Origin: an uncultured Ilumatobacter sp.
GTDB taxonomy: Bacteria > Actinomycetota > Acidimicrobiia > Acidimicrobiales > Ilumatobacteraceae
DNA: 34,297 bases
Direction: 5' to 3'
Assembly (NCBI GenBank): GCA_938044705.1
Contig: CALIOL010000181.1
Location: forward strand, 1-34,297
Part shown: in pieces, positions 1,046 through 24,534 of the stretch
Position numbering within the stretch: the stretch's first letter is position 1
Layout of the letters: the number at the start of each line of letters is the position of its first letter
Program-made: the position numbers and the translations under genes
Notes under the pieces: generated by a model
Told to the model about the DNA's origin: nothing
Database searches by the model: none
What the model saw: the letters and a program-made list of their open reading frames with translations, nothing else

Positions 1046-3265
1046 GTGACTCTGAGACGAACGAATGCTCGGCGGTGGCGGGCGACCATTGCGTTCGCAG
1101 CTGGGATCGCTGCGATGGTCCCGGGCACAGCGTCGGCCGGAGAGCCTGTTGCCGTCGATGTCGCCCGTCAGGCAGCGATCATCTCTGACGAGGAAGTCGA
1201 TGGGAGGCCACTGGAGTTCGGAGCCCTCGTGTTCGACCCGACGATCGAGGCGCCGGTTGGGATTCCCGGCACGAACGAAGTGGTCGGCGTACTCGAAGGT
1301 GATCGCCGTGTCGCTCGCCTCGATGTACGAACCGGCCGACTCCAAATCGGGGACTCGGTTCCGCACACGTCCGGGTTTCGGAAGTTGCCGACCATCACCT
1401 CGGATGGGCAATCGGTCGTCGTGTTCAGTACCGACACCAACCGGGTCGTTCGTGCCCATCGCTACAACCTGGAAACGCTGAGCCTTGGTTCCACCGTCAA
1501 TCTCACGCCGGCGCTCGGCGCGAACGAGGTCGTCTTTGGGGCGCACGCCGTTGCTGGAGGCGGTGACGCGATTGTCGTACATGGTCGGCGCATTGCGTTT
1601 CTCGTCGACGAGATTGGAATCGCTCCCAACCGGGTCGTCACTGCCAGTGAGCTGTACGACGTGGACGCATCCGTCCCCGGTCGGGCCGTGGTGAGCGTCG
1701 GCGTTGATGACGACATCGACATCGACTCGCTGGGCGGGATCCACGCGCTGGAGATTGACGATCAAGGTCTGACGCTTGGTGAGCGGATCATCGAAGGATT
1801 TGCTGACTTCGACGGGCTGTTCGTGCGTGGCGACGAGATCGTCACTCAGAACGCCGTGCATGATCTCGACGGCAACCGACTTCGAACGGCGACGCCGTTT
1901 GACCTCGCGATCGACGACCCGACCGAGCCCCTGAGGTACACGCATGCTGACAGCTCGCCAGTCGTCGTCTTCGACGAGGTCGACGGTGAGGCGTTGACCG
2001 AGGGCCGTGAATGCCGCTTCTCTTCGGGATACGTGGTCATCGGCAATGGGCTGGCGGCGAAGCGAGGTGCGGTGGGCGGCACCGTCATCGTCAACGTTCT
2101 CGATGCATGCGGTTCGTATGGTGAATTCACGCCTGTCGACCCTGCGCGAGTTCTCGACACCCGCACCGGGCAGGGGCTCGGAGGTGCACCGGCGCGAATC
2201 AACGGTGGCGACACCCTTAGGGTCAAGATTCATGGGTTCGCTGGCGTGCCCGAGGACGGGGTCGAATCGGTGGTGCTGAACGTGACGGGTCTTCGTCAGC
2301 GAGACACCGAAGGAGTGTTGAACTTCGTCACCGTCTGGCCGGCAGGGTTCGAGCAGCCAACAGTGTCGAATCTCAACATCGGTGAGAACGAAGTCGTCGG
2401 CAACATGGTGACGGTGTCGACTGCGGCGGGAGGATTCGTCGACGTCTACAGCGACGTCGGGACCATGGATCTCACCATCGACGTGATGGGCTACTTCGCC
2501 TCGGCGACAGCGCCGGCCGCAGCCCGATTCCAGAACGTCGACAACGTGCGCCTTGTGGACACTCGGGAAACGGGTACCCCGCTCGGTGAAGGACGTCGGT
2601 TGACCGTGGATGCGAGCGAATCTCGGGTCGTTCAAGAAACGGTCGCCGATGAGATCGTTGCGCTCGTCGTCAACGTCACGGCGGTCCAGCCGACGAAGCG
2701 GAGCCATTTCCGGATCTTCCCGAACGGGGCGCCAGTGCCGGATGCATCGTCAGCCAACTTCGAGGCGCGGCGGAACACCAACCGACTCGTCACCGTGAAG
2801 TCGGCTGGTGGTGCGATTGACGTGTGGAACAGCGAAGGCGAAACTCACCTCACCGTCGACCTCGTCGGGGTCTACGTCGATGGAGGCGGTTTCGTGCCGG
2901 CCGGAGGTCGGTTCATCGGCTTGGTGCCGTTTCGCGAGCTCGACACCCGCGTCGACAGTCCATTCGAGGGGAACGGCTCCATCCCGGAAGAGTTCTTGAT
3001 CTCGATGCCGGGTTGGCGGTCACACATCGAACTGGTCGTCAACCTGACGGCGATCCGGCCGACGAGGACCGGGTTTCTCTCGGCCGGTCCGTGGACGGGC
3101 GACTTCGAACCATTCCTGGAGACGTCGGCGTTGAACTTCGGTCCCAACGCTGTCGTGGCCAACCAGTCGATCATTCGCACATCGTCCGATGGTGAGATCG
3201 GGGTCTTCAACGGCGCCGGAAATACCCACGTGGCAATGGACGTGTTCGGGTTCTACACGCCGTAG
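1046..3265 (+). CDS. Secreted protein with three C-terminal LDTR/VLNVTA repeats
   Basis: A 739-residue protein with an N-terminal signal peptide: a basic start (TLRRTNARRWR), a hydrophobic core, and a likely cleavage after Ala-Ser-Ala near residue 31. Residues ~35-355 are beta-rich with repeated short strands, perhaps a propeller-like fold, and match no family I can name. From ~359 to the end are three related modules of ~125-130 residues (about 359-487, 491-614, 615-739). Each opens with a phrase like PARVLDTRTG, continues with VVLNVTAV-type and SNLNF-type strands, and ends with THLTVDVxGYF. Similar modules are common at the C-termini of secreted proteins from Actinobacteria, where the role is unknown and cell-surface binding is only a guess. 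The start is supported by a -10 element 6 nt upstream. It ends 53 bp before uvrB, which has its own promoter. Confidence 0.75.
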   Translation: MTLRRTNARRWRATIAFAAGIAAMVPGTASAGEPVAVDVARQAAIISDEEVDGRPLEFGALVFDPTIEAPVGIPGTNEVVGVLEGDRRVARLDVRTGRLQIGDSVPHTSGFRKLPTITSDGQSVVVFSTDTNRVVRAHRYNLETLSLGSTVNLTPALGANEVVFGAHAVAGGGDAIVVHGRRIAFLVDEIGIAPNRVVTASELYDVDASVPGRAVVSVGVDDDIDIDSLGGIHALEIDDQGLTLGERIIEGFADFDGLFVRGDEIVTQNAVHDLDGNRLRTATPFDLAIDDPTEPLRYTHADSSPVVVFDEVDGEALTEGRECRFSSGYVVIGNGLAAKRGAVGGTVIVNVLDACGSYGEFTPVDPARVLDTRTGQGLGGAPARINGGDTLRVKIHGFAGVPEDGVESVVLNVTGLRQRDTEGVLNFVTVWPAGFEQPTVSNLNIGENEVVGNMVTVSTAAGGFVDVYSDVGTMDLTIDVMGYFASATAPAAARFQNVDNVRLVDTRETGTPLGEGRRLTVDASESRVVQETVADEIVALVVNVTAVQPTKRSHFRIFPNGAPVPDASSANFEARRNTNRLVTVKSAGGAIDVWNSEGETHLTVDLVGVYVDGGGFVPAGGRFIGLVPFRELDTRVDSPFEGNGSIPEEFLISMPGWRSHIELVVNLTAIRPTRTGFLSAGPWTGDFEPFLETSALNFGPNAVVANQSIIRTSSDGEIGVFNGAGNTHVAMDVFGFYTP

Positions 3266-3284
3266 CGCCCCGAGGTCGTGCTGG

Positions 3285-3298
3285 CGAACGCCTGTTCG
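3285..3298 (+). promoter_or_regulatory. LexA/SOS box of uvrB
   Basis: CGAAC-GCCT-GTTCG is a perfect palindrome with the CGAAC-N4-GTTCG pattern bound by LexA in Gram-positive bacteria and Actinobacteria. It lies 7 nt upstream of the -10 element and covers the expected -35 region, so LexA binding should repress uvrB until DNA damage. Confidence 0.8.
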
Positions 3299-3305
3299 TT
3301 CGGGG

Positions 3306-3311
3306 TAGAAT
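3306..3311 (+). promoter_or_regulatory. -10 element of uvrB (leaderless)
   Basis: TAGAAT is one mismatch from TATAAT and ends 7 nt before the ATG at 3319. No Shine-Dalgarno sequence is present, which implies a leaderless mRNA. Confidence 0.7.
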
Positions 3312-3318
3312 CTGATCC

Positions 3319-5454
3319 ATGACCGACGTCGCTGAACCAGGAGTCGAGCCTGTGGGGAACGCTGCGAAGATCGAGCAGGACCTGCTTCTCCTCGACGGTG
3401 ACGTGCAAGCCGAGAATTACGGCGTGGGCGAAGACCGCAAGTTCAAGGTCGAGTCGGAGTGGGAACCCGCAGGGGCTCAGCCCGCGGCAATCGAAGCGCT
3501 GTCCAAGGGTGTGGACGAGGGGCAGCGCTTCCAGACGCTGCTCGGCATCACCGGGTCCGGCAAGTCGGCCACGATTGCGTGGACGATCGAGAAGACGCAG
3601 CGGCCCACGCTGATCCTTGCGCCGAACAAGTCGCTCGCCGCGCAGCTGGCCCAGGAGATGCGTGACTTCTTCCCGAACAACCGGGTCGAGTACTTCGTGT
3701 CGTACTACGACTACTACCAACCCGAGGCGTACATCCCGTCGAGCGACACCTTCATCGAGAAGGACTCGTCGGTGAACGACGAGATCGACCGGTTGCGTCA
3801 CTCTGCTACCGCAGCGCTGCTGACCCGTCGCGACACGATCGTCGTCGCGTCGGTGTCGTGCATCTATGGCATGGGGAACCCCGAGGAGTACCGCGGGCAC
3901 CTGCTCGATCTCAATGTTGGCGTCGACTACGACATGCGCTCGATCCTGCGTCGGCTCGTCGACATGCAGTACGACCGCAACGACATGACCCTCGGCCGCG
4001 GCAACTTCCGAGTCCGGGGTGACACCATCGAGGTTCACCCCGCCTACGAGGAAAACGTGCTGCGTGTCGAGATGTTCGGCGACACCATCGAGCGCATCAC
4101 CACGATCGACCCGATCACCGGGGAGAACCTGCGTGATCTCGATCGCGCCTACGTCTTCCCGGCCACGCACTACGCCACGTCGGCAGAACGTCTGCAGACG
4201 GCGATGGGCAAGATCGAGAATGAGCTGCAGGTGCGGCTCAAGGAGTTCGAAGAGCAAGACAAATTGCTCGAAGCCCAACGACTTCGCATGCGGACGTCGT
4301 ACGACCTCGAGATGATGAGCGAAGTCGGCTACTGCAACGGCATCGAGAACTACTCGATGCACATGGACGGACGCGAGTACGGCGAGCCCCCGTTCACCCT
4401 GCTCGACTACTTCCCCGAGGACTATCTGCTGGTCATCGACGAGAGTCACGTCGCGGTGCCCCAGCTCCATGGTCAATACGCAGGAGACCGAAGTCGTAAG
4501 GACATGCTCGTCGAGCACGGTTTCCGGCTTCCGTCGGCTCGAGACAACCGGCCCCTCACGTTCGAAGAAGTGCTCGGGCGCGTCAATCAAGGCATCTTCG
4601 TCTCGGCAACGCCGTCCGAGTACGAGACGCGCGTGTCGACCAACCTCGTCGAGCAAGTCATCCGACCGACCGGCCTCGTCGACCCCGAAGTGATCGTGAA
4701 ACCCACCAAGGGCCAGATCGACGACTTGATGGAGCTGGTCAATGGGCGCATCGCCATGGGGGACCGGGCGCTCGTCACGACGCTGACCAAGAAGATGGCC
4801 GAGGACCTCACCGACTACCTCCTCGAACAAGGGCTGCGAGTCCGGTACCTGCACTCCAACATCGACACCATTCAGCGCATCGAGATCCTCCGCGCGCTGC
4901 GTCTCGGCGAGTTCGACGTACTGGTGGGCATCAACCTCTTGCGCGAGGGTCTCGACCTGCCCGAAGTCTCGCTCGTCTGCATTCTCGACGCTGACAAAGA
5001 AGGCTTCCTGCGCTCCGAGACGTCGCTGATCCAGATGATCGGCCGTGCCGCTCGAAACGTCGACGGCCAAGTCGTGATGTACGCCGACAAGATCACCGAC
5101 TCGATGCAGACAGCGATCGACACCACCCAGGAGCGTCGCAAGGTCCAGCTCGCGTACAACGAAGAGCACGGAATCAACCCCGAGACCATTCGCAAAGCAG
5201 TCGGGGACATCTTGTCGATGCTGCGAGGGCCCGAAGATCGCGCACCGGTGCCGGGCAAGGACCGCCGCCGTCAACGCGAGCGCGACAAGGTGCAGAGCGA
5301 GTTGAAGAATCTGCCGCAGCAGGAGCTGACGCGCCTGATCCAGACCCTCGAAGAAGAAATGCACGCCGCTTCTGCCGACCTCAAGTTCGAGTACGCGGCG
5401 AAGCTGCGCGACGAGATCAACGATCTGCGTCGTCAAGTGGTGGATGCCGGCTGA
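3319..5454 (+). CDS. uvrB: Excinuclease ABC subunit UvrB
   Basis: UvrB is the DNA-loading and damage-verifying helicase-like subunit of nucleotide excision repair. It accepts DNA from UvrA and positions UvrC. The 711-residue protein has Walker [11 protein letters not shown] (Lys82). The damage-verification hairpin region is [21 protein letters not shown]-like. The helicase motifs include VIDESHV and [12 protein letters not shown], and the IGRAARN arginine motif is present. A UVR domain at ~670-706 is the UvrC contact. The usual PAGDQPxAI motif reads PAGAQPAAI. About 40 residues precede the conserved core, a longer acidic N-terminus than usual. The start is fixed by the leaderless promoter, and the next possible starts would cut into the core. 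An SOS box covers the promoter. Confidence 0.97.
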
Positions 5455-16065: not shown

Positions 16066-16779
16066 TCATTCCGGCGCAGCTGCCTCGACATCGTCCTGGG
16101 TGACGATGCCCGCCTCGACGACGTGTTCGGCGAGTCGGGTACGGCGGTCCTTCGCCAGGCGATCGCTCGAACCGTGGAGGCCGGCGACCCCGGCCTTGGA
16201 GTACTTGGCGCACAGTCCGTCGAGCTTGCGGTTGAACTTGGTGACCGTCCAATCGAGTGATGCGGCGATGATCCGGTTGGTCGGCATCGGGACGTCGTTC
16301 ACGATCGGTCGAGCGAGCGCCACCAGCAACGTGAACTGATCCTCGGTCAACGGAATGTGCGACGTTGTCGCAGTCTGTTCGTCCGGGTTGATGGTGATCT
16401 CCGGGTGAACGGATTCCTCGTCGGCGTCGTCGGAGAGGTCCGGGCCGATCACGTCGAGCGAGAGCTCATAGGACGTTCCGCCTGCGTCGAATCGAAGGGT
16501 GGCCGAGTCGTAGGCGATCGGCGTCGACGTGCCCGGAGCGATCCGCGCCGAGGACGTGCTTCCGGCATCGTTGAGGGCGAGTCCGATGGACGAGCCGACG
16601 TTGTCGATCCACCACAGCCCATTCGCATGTCGGAATTCGGCGAGGACCCGGTGCAGAAACTTGTTGTCGTCGATGATGATGTCGGCCGATCGCCCGATCG
16701 TGAGCGTCTGATCATTGGTCGCGGAGTACTCCTCCCCGCAGAACTCGACGCGGAGTTCGTGATCGTGGTCGGTGTTCAT
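16066..16779 (-). CDS. FHA-domain protein with a C-terminal helix-turn-helix-like region
   Basis: A 237-residue cytosolic protein. Residues ~8-110 form an FHA domain that should bind phosphothreonine peptides. Visible parts are LTIGRSADIII (Gly29-Arg30-Ser31), FLHRVLAEFRHANGLWWIDNVGSSIG and a closing LRFDAGGTSYEL strand. After an acidic linker (~112-140), residues ~142-230 are helical and winged-helix-like (LTEDQFTLLVALARPI, TNRIIAASLDWTVTKFNRKLDGLCAKY). That suggests DNA binding steered by phosphopeptide recognition. Its start overlaps the stop of the upstream FHA gene in ATGA, and its stop is 4 nt from the kinase start. No Ser/Thr kinase gene is in the window, so the phosphorylated partner is unknown. 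Confidence 0.82.
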   Translation of the reverse strand: MNTDHDHELRVEFCGEEYSATNDQTLTIGRSADIIIDDNKFLHRVLAEFRHANGLWWIDNVGSSIGLALNDAGSTSSARIAPGTSTPIAYDSATLRFDAGGTSYELSLDVIGPDLSDDADEESVHPEITINPDEQTATTSHIPLTEDQFTLLVALARPIVNDVPMPTNRIIAASLDWTVTKFNRKLDGLCAKYSKAGVAGLHGSSDRLAKDRRTRLAEHVVEAGIVTQDDVEAAAPE

Positions 16780-17903
16780 CGGGTCTCGTTCCGTTCGGGC
16801 GGTGGTGCGGTCGGTTCGAGGCCTGCTGGCACCCGAAGCTCGGTTGGATCAGTGATCGTCAGTGTGGTCGGTCCGCCGAGCTGGATCGTGTCACCGATCT
16901 CCACGCGACGCGGCTGCCAGGGCTCGAGTGCGACGGGTGCGCCGCCGCCGGCGGGCGTCACGGCTGTTCGTCCCCGCGCTCCACAGTCGGTCGCCGTGAC
17001 GATGCCGGCATCGAGCCGAAGCAGAACATGAGTGCGCGACACGGTTCCGGGAGCTTCGATCGCGACGAGGCGAGGAGTGTTCTCCAGCCGTGCTCCCTCG
17101 GCGGACGGCGACCGGCCGACCGCGATCGACCGGTTGATTGGAATGACGCTGCCATCTGGGAGTCGGAGCCCTGCGATCGCCGTCGACGGCCGCGGCCCGG
17201 AGCGGCCTGCGGTCGCGTCGAGCGAATCGCCGCAGACGCGGCACACGTTGTGCGTGTTCGGATTCGCGTGGCCGCGTGGGCAGCGCACATCACCGGAACG
17301 CCGAAACGTCCGGTCGGTGTCGTCATCGGGGTATGTGGTCGGCCCCACCGGCGCGAGCGTCACGTCCAGATCGGTCAGTTCTTCGAACTGCTCCGGCTCA
17401 GCGGTGACGTCCGCTGGCTCGGAGCGTCGCGCAAGGCGGTGCTCATGACTCATCCGTGGGACGTGCAGCTCGAACCCACCAGCTGGTACCTCGCCACTGC
17501 GGAGGTCGCCCGGCAGGCCGACCTGCCACCCGCCATGGCTCGTGATCGAGAGCTCGGCGGTCACTTCGGGGTCGACCGTGTGTCTCGGGCCTGTCAGCGG
17601 GTACTGGCTCCATGCGGTGACGCCGTCCCCGGCGATCACGACGCCCTGCAGGTCGATGGTGGTGTCGACCTCGATCGGGTCATCGATCTCGCCCCACTCG
17701 ATGAAGCACCGGGGAAGGTTGGTCGACCGAGTTTCATCCGTGGCTCCGGAGCGGTCGAAGCGCTGCATGAGGTCATCGACCTCGGGTTGGGTCACGACCT
17801 CGCTCGGCGGGACGAAGAGCAGGCAGTTGCCACGTCGCGCGAGTCGACCCTCACCCGCAAGCACGCCGAGGCGCACCGGTGGTGGGCCGCCTCGTTCGTC
17901 CAT
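16776..17903 (-). CDS. Zinc-ribbon and FHA-domain protein
   Basis: A 375-residue soluble protein that opens the operon. Residues ~9-195 form a beta-rich domain I cannot name (RLGVLAGEGRLARRGNCLLFVPP, later SITSHGGWQVGLPGDLRSGEVPAGGFELHVPR). A short zinc ribbon follows (CPRGHANP...CRVCGD; Cys208, His212, Cys221, Cys224). A C-terminal FHA domain (~245-350) has AVGRS (Gly263-Arg264-Ser265) and VSRTH (Ser289-Arg290-Thr-His292), the residues that usually contact phosphothreonine. The ATG at 17903 was chosen because longer versions would run through the uvrA promoter and into uvrA. The gene is divergent from uvrA, with 97 nt between the two starts. Confidence 0.8.
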   Translation of the reverse strand: MDERGGPPPVRLGVLAGEGRLARRGNCLLFVPPSEVVTQPEVDDLMQRFDRSGATDETRSTNLPRCFIEWGEIDDPIEVDTTIDLQGVVIAGDGVTAWSQYPLTGPRHTVDPEVTAELSITSHGGWQVGLPGDLRSGEVPAGGFELHVPRMSHEHRLARRSEPADVTAEPEQFEELTDLDVTLAPVGPTTYPDDDTDRTFRRSGDVRCPRGHANPNTHNVCRVCGDSLDATAGRSGPRPSTAIAGLRLPDGSVIPINRSIAVGRSPSAEGARLENTPRLVAIEAPGTVSRTHVLLRLDAGIVTATDCGARGRTAVTPAGGGAPVALEPWQPRRVEIGDTIQLGGPTTLTITDPTELRVPAGLEPTAPPPERNETR

Positions 17904-20980: not shown

Positions 20981-22249
20981 GTGACGATCGAAGCGACTGA
21001 GGGAGCGACCGCAGCCGAACGGCAGGCACTTCAGCGTCGAACGCTCAACTCCCTGCGACTCGCAACGGTGCCAGGCCAGGCGGCGGTCGCTGGCATGGTC
21101 GCAGTGGTCTCGTTGCTCGCGAGCGACCTGCTCGGGTCTGATCGCCTCGCCGGCATCGGCAGTGCATCGTTCACCGTCGGCGCCGCCCTCACGTCGATCC
21201 CCTTGGCTGCCTTCATGCGACGCCGTGGACGGCGCATCGGACTCGCCCGTGCACTTGGGGTGGGGGCGATCGGCTCCGCTGTCGCAGCGCTCGGCGGTGA
21301 ACTGCGGCTCTTCCCGATCTTCGTCGTCGGCATGATCCTGTTTGGTTCGGGGCAGTCCGCCACACTGCAGGGCCGATATGTCGCTGCCGACCTCGCGGAA
21401 CCGTCCAAGGCCGGTTCCGCAATCGCTGCGATCGTGTGGGTGGGCACGCTCGGAGCGGTTTTCGGTCCGCTACTGACGCCGGTCGAAAAGTCGATGGCGT
21501 CCTCGGTGGGGCTCGACGAACTGGTCGGTCCGTTCATCGTTGCGTCGGTGCTGTTTGCGGCGGCGTCGATCATCATCACGTTGCGACTCCGCCCTGACCC
21601 GCTCGAGGTGCTCGGCACGTTGGATCCCGGTGCGGAGCGCGTCCGGCCGCTTCGTCAGGTGCAGCGATCCGCTCGCGTGATCGCTGCGTCCGCTCCAGCC
21701 CGGCTCGGGTTGGTGGCCATGGCGGTCTCCCAGGCAGCGATGGTCGGTGTGATGACGATGACGCCTCCGCACATGAAGGACCACGACCACGCCGACCTGT
21801 CGGCAATCGTCATCGCTGTCCACATCGTGGGCATGTATGGGCTCGCTCCGGTCGTTGGCCGCCGGGTCGACAGCATCGGTGCGAACCGGGCGATTCAGGT
21901 CGGCGCGATTGTTCTCGGAGTCGGCACGGTGTCGACCGTGGTGGCTGGCTATGTGCCAGCGCTGATGTTCGTCGGTCTGTTCTTCCTTGGCCTCGGCTGG
22001 AACATCGGGTTGATCGGCGGTTCCACCTTGCTCACGAAGTCTGTCCCGGAGGGCACGCGTGTCGAGGTGCAGGGCACCGCTGACCTCACGATGAGTCTGT
22101 GTGGCGCTGTCGCGGCGTTCGGTTCAGGGTTCGTGAAAGAGTCGTTTGGGTTCCACCTGCTCGCAAACGGTGCCGCTGTGCTCGCCGCTGGGTTGCTCGT
22201 CCTCGCGTGGTCGACCGTAGGCGCCCGCCCCACCCCCTCGATCCGGTGA
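20981..22249 (+). CDS. MFS transporter
   Basis: A 422-residue membrane protein with about twelve hydrophobic segments, the normal size for the major facilitator superfamily. After helix 2 comes the cytoplasmic loop FMRRRGRRIGLARALG, a form of MFS motif A. A longer, charged central loop (RPDPLEVLGTLDPGAERVRPLRQVQRSARV, ~205-235) divides the two halves. A second GRRVDSIGANRAI loop lies in the C-half. The transport substrate cannot be told from sequence. Efflux of a small molecule is the usual default. The GTG start is 43 nt after uvrA and has no strong ribosome binding site. The TGA stop lies inside the first palindromic repeat at 22245-22282. Confidence 0.85.
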   Translation: MTIEATEGATAAERQALQRRTLNSLRLATVPGQAAVAGMVAVVSLLASDLLGSDRLAGIGSASFTVGAALTSIPLAAFMRRRGRRIGLARALGVGAIGSAVAALGGELRLFPIFVVGMILFGSGQSATLQGRYVAADLAEPSKAGSAIAAIVWVGTLGAVFGPLLTPVEKSMASSVGLDELVGPFIVASVLFAAASIIITLRLRPDPLEVLGTLDPGAERVRPLRQVQRSARVIAASAPARLGLVAMAVSQAAMVGVMTMTPPHMKDHDHADLSAIVIAVHIVGMYGLAPVVGRRVDSIGANRAIQVGAIVLGVGTVSTVVAGYVPALMFVGLFFLGLGWNIGLIGGSTLLTKSVPEGTRVEVQGTADLTMSLCGAVAAFGSGFVKESFGFHLLANGAAVLAAGLLVLAWSTVGARPTPSIR

Positions 22250-22282
22250 GCCAACCCGCGCCCCGGCCGTGGTTCGCTCACC
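22245..22282 (+). repeat. 38-nt palindromic repeat, copy 1 (with copy 2 downstream)
   Basis: The arms GGTGAGCCAACC and GGTTCGCTCACC pair with one mismatch around a variable ~10-nt centre. CGCG occupies positions 13-16, as in all four copies. The TGA stop of the MFS gene is part of the left arm. Extending outward, CCGG on both sides also pairs. Confidence 0.85.
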
Positions 22283-22295
22283 GGTCTGAGTTCGG

Positions 22296-22333
22296 GGTGA
22301 GCCAGTTCGCGTCGTGGTCGGGGTTCGCTCACC
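22296..22333 (+). repeat. 38-nt palindromic repeat, copy 2
   Basis: It has the same length and orientation as copy 1 and starts exactly 51 nt after it. The arms are GGTGAGC and GCTCACC. The reverse-strand TGA stop of the DUF559 gene (22329-22331) lies in the right arm. The pair sits between two convergent genes and may act as a bidirectional terminator. Confidence 0.85.
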
Positions 22334-23264
22334 GGAAGGTGGTCGAGCGGTGGTGGTAGACCACGACGAGCTGTTGGATCGCGGCGTCGAATGCGTGGTC
22401 GTACTCGTTCCGGCTGATTCGCGAAACGAGCCAGCCGAGCGATGCGGCGCCTGCGTCTCGTTGTTGGTCCGACGCACGTCCCTCGGTTCGTTCGTGACTC
22501 GGGTGCACGTCGACTTCGATTGCCCACTTCAGTCGTGGGACAGCCAGGTCGAACCGGGCCGGGCCGTAGCCCGGGAGCAGAATCTTGTGCTGACGTGAGA
22601 CGTCGGTGATCCCGGAGCGTTTCAATGCTTGGCCGACGCGGGACTCGGCGCCTGATTCAGCGGCGCCGCCGTCGAGGCGACGGTCGAGCAACTCGAGGAA
22701 GGTGTACGCCCAGGGTCGTCGCTTCGACAGCCAGTCGACCGCGACGCGACGCATGTCGGCGGCGGTCAGATCGCCGTCATGGAGCGCTTGCTCGATCACC
22801 GAGAGGAGAGCTTGTGGACGCAGCGATCGGCTGAGATCGAACGCAGTGCGCTCTCGGGTGGTGATCCTGATTCCGTCAGCTCGCTCGATCTGGTCGGACG
22901 GATGAATCGCTGCCGTGCGATACACCTTCACGACCGGGTGACAAGCAGGTTGTGCGTGAGGTGGTGCGATGACGTGGATCCGACGGTCGGAGCTGACATG
23001 GCGAAAGCCCCACAGTCGTCCGGCCGTCGGCCCCGAGATGCAGATGTCGGGTCGCGCAAGGCAAAGCGCAGTGCAGTGCGCGAGCTCGTCGATCTCGACG
23101 CTGGGCGACGCATATGCGCCTCGCCTCAGGTGAATCAACTGGCCGCATCGACAGAGGTGCTCGATCTGTCGTTGCGTCAGGCCAGCGTGGTGTAACTGCT
23201 CGAGGCTGGCGATGCCATGTTGCACCCGAAAATGCCGATGAACGTCGGCGGGAAGGTTGGCCAC
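22329..23264 (-). CDS. AbiEi-like/DUF559 protein (PD-(D/E)XK nuclease-fold relative)
   Basis: A 311-residue protein. Residues ~12-55 form a winged-helix-like AbiEi antitoxin-type N-terminus (GIASLEQLHHAGLTQRQIEHLCRCGQLIHLRRGAYA). The middle (~60-190) has the strands and helices usual between the two parts (GPTAGRLWGF, RTAFDLSRSL). Residues ~205-300 are the DUF559 domain of the restriction-endonuclease-like fold: Glu in ESRVGQAL, Asp in ARFDLAVP, then AIEVDVHPSHE. The usual E-x-D-G reads E-V-D-V, so nuclease activity is uncertain. No AbiEii-type toxin gene is adjacent. Such orphan genes are abundant in Actinobacteria with unknown role. The GTG start has a good ribosome binding site. The gene is bracketed by two pairs of palindromic repeats, which suggests a small inserted unit. 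Confidence 0.8.
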   Translation of the reverse strand: MANLPADVHRHFRVQHGIASLEQLHHAGLTQRQIEHLCRCGQLIHLRRGAYASPSVEIDELAHCTALCLARPDICISGPTAGRLWGFRHVSSDRRIHVIAPPHAQPACHPVVKVYRTAAIHPSDQIERADGIRITTRERTAFDLSRSLRPQALLSVIEQALHDGDLTAADMRRVAVDWLSKRRPWAYTFLELLDRRLDGGAAESGAESRVGQALKRSGITDVSRQHKILLPGYGPARFDLAVPRLKWAIEVDVHPSHERTEGRASDQQRDAGAASLGWLVSRISRNEYDHAFDAAIQQLVVVYHHRSTTFR

Positions 23265-23270
23265 GTGTTG

Positions 23271-23277
23271 TCTCCCT
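23271..23277 (-). promoter_or_regulatory. Ribosome binding site of the DUF559 gene
   Basis: On the minus strand AGGGAGA lies 6 nt before the GTG at 23264. This is one of the few clear Shine-Dalgarno sequences in front of a first gene in this window, and it marks the gene as different from its leaderless neighbours. Confidence 0.6.
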
Positions 23278-23340
23278 GATGTCGAACAGCAAGGGAGGAG
23301 CCGGTGGCTGAAATGTTATCACTTGCCCGACCCAGGGATC

Positions 23341-23378
23341 GGTGAGCGAGTCCGCGCCGACATGGGGATTGGCTCACC
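23341..23378 (+). repeat. 38-nt palindromic repeat, copy 3
   Basis: The left arm is GGTGAGCGA and the right arm TTGGCTCACC, with CGCG at positions 13-16 and a variable centre. Orientation and length equal copies 1 and 2. It lies upstream of the DUF559 gene start. Confidence 0.85.
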
Positions 23379-23391
23379 GTTTGGGTGGGTT

Positions 23392-23429
23392 GGTGAGGGA
23401 GTCCGCGTGGGGGTGGGGGTTGGCTCACC
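23392..23429 (+). repeat. 38-nt palindromic repeat, copy 4
   Basis: It starts 51 nt after copy 3. The left arm is GGTGAGGGA (one arm mismatch) and the right arm GGTTGGCTCACC. The 13-nt spacers after copies 3 and 4 are also alike (G-rich, ggtTTGGGTGGG-type). It sits 36 nt from the 3' end of the rhomboid-like gene. Confidence 0.85.
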
Positions 23430-23464
23430 GGTTGGGTGGGGTGGGCCAGGAGGCTGAGGTGAGT

Positions 23465-24415
23465 TCAGCGGTTGCGGAGGCGCTTGCTGAGTTCGTTCAA
23501 CCGTTGCTTCTCGGCACTGGACAGCGCATCCATGCCGACGTCGCTGATCTTGTCGAGCAGCCCGTCCATCTCGGCCTGATCTGTCGGAGACGGGCCGGGT
23601 GGGGGAACGATCTTCGGTGCGGACGCCTCGGGCTCGCGACGCCATGGCCCTTCGACCACGCGTTGGCCGGCGCCGCCCCGCTTCGGACGCTTCGGCGAGG
23701 GCTTCGATCGCTTCGAGCGACGACCGCCACCCGAACCGATCCCCGCGCCGAGCGGGATGTGTGGAATCGGCCACGCGGTAGCGAAGCCGAGCGACCGCCC
23801 TGCACTCAATGCGGCAGCGATCGAGATCAGCAGGAACAAGATGCCGCCCGATGCTCGCGCTCCGGTGAACTGCAGCAACTGCAGCAACGTGAAGACACCG
23901 GCGATCGCCCACAGCGGGATGATCTCAAACCAGCGAACGTTCGGGTAGGTCGCGGCATACACCCAGATTCCCGCGAGGAAGAGTGGGCCGAGTCCGAAGG
24001 TGAAGCTCGTGACGTCCAGGCTCGGGCTCGCCAAACCCAGCAGCGTCAGTGAGATCGAGGGAACCAAGGTGACGGCGAGCACCCACATGAGGAACTTGTT
24101 CCGGCCGAACATGCCTTCGATCTGCTGACCGAACGACCAGAAGAAGGCAATGCTGATGACCACGAAGATGCTGCGGCTACCGCCGAGTCCTTCGGCAACG
24201 GGCCAGGTGAACAGCCGCCAGATCTCGCCGCTGCGAACGGACGGTGCGCTGAAGATCAGTCGGGCCCAGAGCCCTGAAGGGCTTGCTGCCCACAAGAAGA
24301 TCGACAGGATCGAGAGTGCCGTCATGATGTCGACCGTGGTCAGGTCGTATCGGCTCACGCGGAACCAGCCCTCGTTGGGCCGACGGCTGAACATTGCGGC
24401 GAAGTACTGCGACAT
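23465..24415 (-). CDS. Rhomboid-fold membrane protein lacking the protease motif
   Basis: A 316-residue protein with about six membrane helices in ~28-212. The rhomboid landmark EIWRLFTWPV (64-73) is followed by IAFFWSFGQQIEGMFGRNKFL, which corresponds to the family's WRL-T, FG-x-x-LE and G-x-x-RFL positions. The catalytic serine motif GxSG is replaced by GLGPLF (141-146), and the usual His/Asn near helix 2 are missing. It is therefore probably a pseudoprotease of the iRhom/Derlin kind. After a basic, Ser/Pro-rich linker (~228-275), the C-terminus (DGLLDKISDVGMDALSSAEKQRLNELSKRL) matches the short DUF6576-type tail found on bacterial rhomboid proteins. ATG 24415 was chosen over GTG 24454 because of a TANNNT element 9 nt upstream. 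The gene is divergent from uvrC. Confidence 0.72.
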   Translation of the reverse strand: MSQYFAAMFSRRPNEGWFRVSRYDLTTVDIMTALSILSIFLWAASPSGLWARLIFSAPSVRSGEIWRLFTWPVAEGLGGSRSIFVVISIAFFWSFGQQIEGMFGRNKFLMWVLAVTLVPSISLTLLGLASPSLDVTSFTFGLGPLFLAGIWVYAATYPNVRWFEIIPLWAIAGVFTLLQLLQFTGARASGGILFLLISIAAALSAGRSLGFATAWPIPHIPLGAGIGSGGGRRSKRSKPSPKRPKRGGAGQRVVEGPWRREPEASAPKIVPPPGPSPTDQAEMDGLLDKISDVGMDALSSAEKQRLNELSKRLRNR

Positions 24416-24424
24416 CAGCTGACC

Positions 24425-24430
24425 ACGGTA
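24425..24430 (-). promoter_or_regulatory. -10 element of the rhomboid-like gene (leaderless)
   Basis: On the minus strand TACCGT ends 9 nt before the ATG at 24415, with no Shine-Dalgarno sequence. Confidence 0.4.
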
Positions 24431-24534
24431 CCTGCACCTCGGCGGCCCGAACACGTCACTGCGTCACGTCCTGCACATCTCGCTGCGATCGCAGCGCCCA
24501 CAATTCAGTCGGTACGGCGGCGTCGCAGTGCACG

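Follow-up and report, generated by a model that had tools for sequence, protein, structure and literature searches.

Repetitive extragenic palindromic (REP) sequences are intergenic imperfect palindromes whose main unit is the doublet, or REPIN, which is reported to fold as one long single-stranded hairpin; several families occur per genome, each tied to its own gene, and this single gene, encoding a REP-associated tyrosine transposase (RAYT) of the Y1/HUH type, is bracketed by palindromes. The CGTC REPs are REP-like repeats and dimers to which the consulted part of the source links no RAYT (PMC3733652). In the AbiE type IV toxin-antitoxin systems, AbiEi binds two 23-bp inverted repeats and Rv2827c two pairs, with 3 and 13 bp between repeats, respectively, a step of about 10 bp (PMC7319586, in the part consulted), and the homing endonuclease I-Bth0305I forms a dimer on a target site of almost 60 bp (PMC3943268, likewise in part). 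Here we analysed a stretch of 34,297 nt (henceforth the window) from an uncultured Ilumatobacter sp. (contig CALIOL010000181.1 of assembly GCA_938044705.1; genome G000, 82% complete), in which a lone AbiEi-DUF559 gene stands between two doublets of a palindrome. This architecture, a palindrome-bracketed gene, is near certain; bracketing recurs in relatives in lineage-specific form, gene-free doublets lie at the 3' ends of genes, and a third congener lacks doublets that two others carry. Our best reading is a REPIN/RAYT-like selfish system in which an AbiEi-nuclease replaces the Y1 transposase: we consider it probable that doublet, gene and doublet together form a compact selfish element and that the gene-free doublets are its non-autonomous copies. 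The features of the locus are:

22245..22282, no strand: palindrome 1 of the 3' doublet (3' side of the DUF559 gene); its left arm holds the stop codon of the major facilitator superfamily (MFS) gene
22296..22333, no strand: palindrome 2 of the 3' doublet; its right arm contains the DUF559 stop codon
22329..23264, minus strand: AbiEi-DUF559 gene, 311 aa; AbiEi-fold N-terminal and middle parts and Vsr/I-Bth0305I-like nuclease C-terminal part, as predicted from Pfam, PADLOC, a structure model and fold search
23265..23340, no strand: gap of 76 nt between the DUF559 gene start and the 5' doublet
23341..23378, no strand: palindrome 1 of the 5' doublet (5' side of the DUF559 gene)
23392..23429, no strand: palindrome 2 of the 5' doublet, 36 nt past the DUF6576 gene end; one arm mismatch
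20981..22249, plus strand: neighbouring MFS transporter gene, convergent with the DUF559 gene
23465..24454, minus strand: neighbouring DUF6576-domain gene, lying upstream of the 5' doublet

The four palindromes, 38 nt each with starts 51 nt apart inside both pairs, lie where the initial annotation had placed them, and they are real and far above chance: allowing up to 3 mismatches, the arm plus CGCG pattern occurs in the window only at these four places (8 matches over both strands), compared with 0.18 matches on average and at most 2 in 100 dinucleotide shuffles of the window. The arms do supply two TGA stop codons, at 22247-22249 for the MFS gene and at 22329-22331 (minus strand) for the DUF559 gene, as had been claimed. 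The claim that all four copies carry the pattern stands exactly for three, the copy at 23392 having one mismatch. That of a common orientation is borne out by CGCG, which is on one and the same side in all four, and by the alignment of the two flanking units, slightly better directly than inverted (27 vs 21), but not by the conserved mismatch at arm position 8, which by eye sets C against C in the first pair but G against G in the second. No Rfam family matched positions 22000-23700 at the gathering threshold.

The window gene encodes an AbiEi-fold DNA-binding part and a Vsr/I-Bth0305I-like nuclease domain, as judged from profile matches and a predicted structure. Pfam AbiEi_4 scored above cut-off and REase_MTES_1575 below it, and PADLOC assigned the N-terminal part to AbiEi. 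With the AlphaFold model (pLDDT 87.6, pTM 0.71), Foldseek matched AbiEi (6y8q, E 3.3e-7) and Rv2827c (1zel, E 4.1e-5), and with the nuclease part the I-Bth0305I catalytic domain (3r3p, E 8.2e-3, TMt 0.80) and Vsr (1cw0, E 0.097), the last two having E above 0.001 but ranking high by target coverage. Residues E207, D239, E250, H257 and D266, conserved in 93, 94, 93, 91 and 90 of 95 homologues, respectively, are the putative catalytic residues. The window protein has no NCBIfam family, a single weak PHROGs match (E 0.0092) and no match among plasmid records, where two distant family members matched five records in all; within the phylum, 59 of 149 sampled genomes gave matches to solitary AbiEi/DUF559 genes. 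The protein shares with AbiEi and Rv2827c the fold and, so far as the consulted part of PMC7319586 describes them, inverted repeats that come in pairs and whose spacing changes in steps of about 10 bp, but differs in its additional nuclease domain and in having palindromes at both gene ends and dispersed; no AbiEii toxin partner lies beside the gene at the window locus, where the neighbours are the MFS and DUF6576 genes. With the EDxHD homing endonucleases such as I-Bth0305I and with Vsr it appears to share the catalytic-domain fold and the conserved E, D, H and D residues; in contrast to these, the gene stands alone and intergenic between palindromes, carries an AbiEi part and lies in no intron or intein.

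Bracketing was scanned in the flanks of DUF559 relatives (distinct proteins having both flanks, mostly from the window's order, some loci known only as Actinomycetota) with no arm sequence presupposed and up to 2 mismatches allowed. A matching palindrome of 33-51 nt stood on each side of the gene in 51 of 89 distinct relatives (42 with at most 1 mismatch, 30 with none), or, counting protein clusters with at least one bracketed member, in 49 of 86 at 80% identity and 24 of 40 at 50%. The bracketing palindromes vary in sequence by lineage (for example GATGAGAGATG.., CGAGGGTTCC.., TTGTCGCTTTA.. and AACGCGTGAGGT..). Shuffled flank pairs never scored (0/880), and flanks swapped between different DUF559 genes, pairs that are partly true relatives, scored in 330 of 7832 cases. 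From the closest to the most distant class by hidden Markov model score, 7/10, 13/20, 17/24, 5/14, 9/19 and 0/2 were bracketed, the three misses of the top class each having a one-sided doublet. A phylum-wide sample gave 8 of 24 (7 of 23 outside the window's order; shuffles 1/480), four of the eight positives passing solely at the 2-mismatch limit, so that some may be chance. Across 53 bracketed elements, palindrome-arm similarity tracked protein similarity (Mantel r 0.456, a value reached in none of 2000 permutations).

Among 472 control genes (659 kb of G025, isolate Ww99; the window; eight congener stretches; one stretch of G016, Desertimonas flava; crude gene caller) only three scored: two DUF559 genes, that of the window and that of G025 contig C54, and a RAYT gene of G007. 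The RAYT, the only non-DUF559 control gene bracketed likewise, is an unplanned positive control. The stretch concerned (L134, G007:C1:3740000-3759500) holds RAYT-like genes at 16450-17295 and 2036-3355, one with matched bracketing palindromes (GCGGACGGTTTGTCTC..), the other among tandem repeats of which one frame reads ISAQAxCRRVGV. Mobilisation of the palindromes by a RAYT (Y1 transposase) or some other transposase, with the DUF559 gene as passenger, could be argued from the Y1 transposase genes of eight of nine congeners and of G043, but we think this very improbable: PF01797 had no match in the copy-bearing genomes G000, G025, G026 and G059 (drafts, roughly 76-98% complete), and the flanks of the G043 RAYT held neither matched palindromes nor the GRTGAG motif.

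The initial annotation had proposed a REP-like family and, alternatively, the ends of a small mobile unit. Both were good leads and belong together, since the family that brackets the gene is also dispersed at gene ends. The search for further copies that it had suggested found them, linked to gene ends and to DUF559 genes: in relatives, and at three further loci in G000, namely doublets on C367 (period 50) and C357 (period 51), both after gene ends, and a single on C115. The C115 single (L007, 1501-1538) seemingly lies between divergent genes by eye, against the usual gene-end position. In G043 the family comprises 60 palindromes, all 39 nt, in 34 clusters (22 doublets, 2 triplets, 10 singles), with 24 of 26 spacings at 61-62 nt, and the DUF559 gene on C144 carries the doublet type of the dispersed family. 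Of these clusters, 21 lie between convergent genes, 6 between tandem genes, none between divergent genes, 2 inside genes and 5 at edges, and 26 of the 27 placed are within 17 nt of a called gene 3' end, in loci chosen for holding the motif and with genes from a crude caller. In G025, where 659 kb were sampled irrespective of the motif except for contig C54 with its DUF559 gene, 15 of 19 pattern clusters were intergenic and none divergent, vs 83 of 302 gaps divergent; the remaining four lay inside genes and are background-like. A stricter scan of the same 659 kb gave ten doublet calls, all with GATGAG..CTCATC arms and all from the families flanking the two DUF559 genes of that genome, six from the period-50 family of the C80 gene and four from the period-62 family of the C54 gene (two of the ten lie in one array, and one is the 3' doublet of a DUF559 gene itself). 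Over 290 kb of G043, 213 kb of which were contigs mostly known to hold copies, 13 of 13 core-bearing copies with perfect arms had G[GA]TGAGC..GCTCACC; a joint change of the palindromes of the syntenic G043 and G025 DUF559 genes with the dispersed copies is sample-based, and we do not rely on it. A loose 41-nt pattern matched in 116 of 119 genomes, counts that are a hint only, given a background of tens per genome that the reversed control did not reveal. G043 has a further doublet family (GTCAGCAGAAACC.., period 61; L403 at 5460 and 5521, L387 at 3192 and 19068), with more copies of GTCAGCAGAAACC.. on another contig. Assembly breaks or N runs beside palindromes (G059:C80:14-152, G059:C151:75-215, L279 near 13360) make draft copy numbers likely too low.

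These placements bear on the explanation that the protein is a regulator or defence nuclease that moves nothing, the palindromes being operators that double as terminators at both gene ends and the dispersed copies a regulon or reused terminators. AbiEi proteins are autorepressors that act through paired inverted repeats at their promoters (PMC7319586, in the part consulted), the 5' doublet sits in the leader of the DUF559 gene, PADLOC assigns the N-terminal part to AbiEi, and the closeness of the G043 clusters to gene 3' ends would suit terminators. However, autorepression needs no operator copy at the gene 3' end, dispersed copies that are mostly at 3' ends and never divergent in G043 and G025 are placed opposite to promoters, and among the control genes only DUF559 and RAYT genes were bracketed. 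We therefore regard this explanation as unlikely. The terminator-like function that had been suggested for the repeats fits their position but leaves the lineage's own palindromes on both sides unexplained.

Loci with and without the gene were compared, as had also been suggested. Ilumatobacter nonamiensis (G008) has at the orthologous site the DUF6576 gene, a doublet, a DUF559 gene on the same strand relative to the neighbour and a doublet whose arm supplies the TGA; the protein is 61% identical to that of the window, and the period is 61 vs 51. Eight other congeners have neither gene nor palindromes in this gap (the MFS and DUF6576 genes are adjacent in seven of them, and G009 has uvrA beside DUF6576), so that at this site the gene and its two doublets occur as a set or not at all. 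A close DUF559 homologue in G003 lies about 2.4 kb past the MFS gene, in another gap nearby. The interval from uvrA to the DUF6576 gene in D. flava holds tandem repeats with CACGCAGGCCGCGTGAACGCTCGCTCCGCTCGC (L131, G016:C38, about 3450-3720). In a homing-endonuclease variant, solo palindromes would be targets, the gene would home into cut sites via palindrome homology and the palindromes would spread otherwise. The match of the C-terminal domain to I-Bth0305I, the position of the gene between two full site copies and the existence of sites both with and without the gene favour it, but the empty sites of the eight congeners hold no palindrome and thus leave no target for homing, and the multiplication of doublets is left unexplained; we find this variant improbable.

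As a test of movement, four G026 doublets were followed into three congeners (G059, G044 and G071). G059, 91-93% identical to G026 at three DUF559 loci, has three of the four, and the remaining site coincides with contig ends. G044 cleanly lacks two, has a single palindrome in place of a third and gave no clear match for the fourth, and in G071 matches to the sites were only partial. At the C54 site G044 seemingly has a native hairpin terminator, inside the left arm of which, by eye, the G026 doublet lies.

Doublet periods are 50-51 or 60-63 nt in GRTGAG-type families, 52 in a related CGTGAGC family and 57, 73 or 93 in other palindrome families; the step of about 10 nt is near one DNA turn. 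The near edge of the 5' doublet lies 74-76 nt from the gene start at five of nine loci (two of the five being one locus in sister species) and 107-132 nt at four, and that of the 3' doublet lies -5 to +11 nt from the stop at nine of twelve loci and at -34, -20 and +18 in three. In L216 (G051:C459) a DUF559 gene has GAGTCGC palindromes twice per side (135, 228, 1342 and 1435), with a 93-nt period, about three DNA turns above 62. The reading of the 51-nt unit as an in-frame 17-residue peptide repeat, which the initial annotation had allowed because the window period is divisible by 3, was rejected and has a negligible probability: the periods of relatives (50, 52 and 60-63, among them 61 and 62) are for the most part not divisible by 3, and the copies come after stop codons. 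The palindromes within a doublet have inverted-identical outer arms in G026 (L352, L354) and direct ones in G043 and the window (by eye). As single strands, G026 doublets form a single long hairpin (z -7.9 and -12.9), the fold reported for REPINs, and single copies of the window have folding z of -0.7 to -3.1. The RNA covariation proposed as a check on the copies was absent: in 40 distinct G043 copies, pairing across inner arm positions 8-12 does not exceed that of shuffles, the inner block being fully complementary in 1 of the 40, and the outer arms and CGCG are nearly invariant and hence uninformative on covariation. The compensatory stem change of intrinsic terminators was thus not found in this block, and no U-tract after the stem was noticed by eye, no scan having been run. 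The lack of stem covariation together with fixed outer arms suggests selection on a half-site-reading protein or on a hairpin with a kept internal bulge.

Overall, the system is REPIN/RAYT-like by its mode of life and a non-member by its enzyme. We set it apart because the defining Y1 enzyme was tested for and is absent, the enzyme here being AbiEi plus a Vsr-like nuclease rather than a Y1/HUH transposase; its copies also differ in lying mostly beside gene 3' ends, and no GTAG or CGTC tag at the palindrome foot was noticed by eye, no scan having been run. It resembles the CGTC REPs, as described in the consulted part of PMC3733652, in having REP-like repeats and dimers unlinked to a RAYT, and differs from them in arm sequences and taxa. 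If any REP-like palindrome counts as one kind, the system would be a variant of REP-like elements. The enzyme probably has a role in palindrome movement. By analogy with AbiEi proteins, which bind paired inverted repeats, the AbiEi-fold part would bind the element's own palindromes; the nuclease would nick or cut there, on duplex or hairpins; and repair would copy the doublet, at times with the gene, to another terminator-like site. The I-Bth0305I target span is close to one doublet period.

Several observations weigh against a selfish element moved by its own enzyme. The flank test left 38 of the 89 relatives unbracketed, six of them with a one-sided doublet, as well as 16 of 24 in the phylum sample, and plain common descent also yields a correlation between arms and proteins. 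The orientation of the two ends varies between elements (25 direct, 21 inverted and 7 unclear among the 53). Loss could account for the absence in G044, and the comparison supports no claim of a target duplication; at the loci compared here no gene-bearing unit was seen moving with exact junctions, and a unit kept at one site in G000 and G008 despite 61% protein identity is old, not restless.

Among the open-access matches listed, by title and abstract and with subscription papers mostly uncovered, no paper links DUF559/AbiEi genes to bracketing palindromes. We lean, if only slightly, towards the view that the AbiEi-nuclease genes of Actinomycetota encode the enzymes that mobilise an unnamed class of selfish palindromes and are a second enzymatic solution to the REPIN lifestyle, in which each protein lineage recognises its own palindrome, in many a doublet whose spacing changes by about one DNA turn at a time (50-52 or 60-63 nt). 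They would then offer a candidate enzyme class for palindromes that spread without RAYTs, some REP families such as the CGTC REPs having no known transposase according to the part of the source consulted (PMC3733652), and solitary AbiEi/DUF559 genes would gain a testable role. If this is true, the DNA-recognition part of a selfish element evolved from an antitoxin fold familiar from phage defence.

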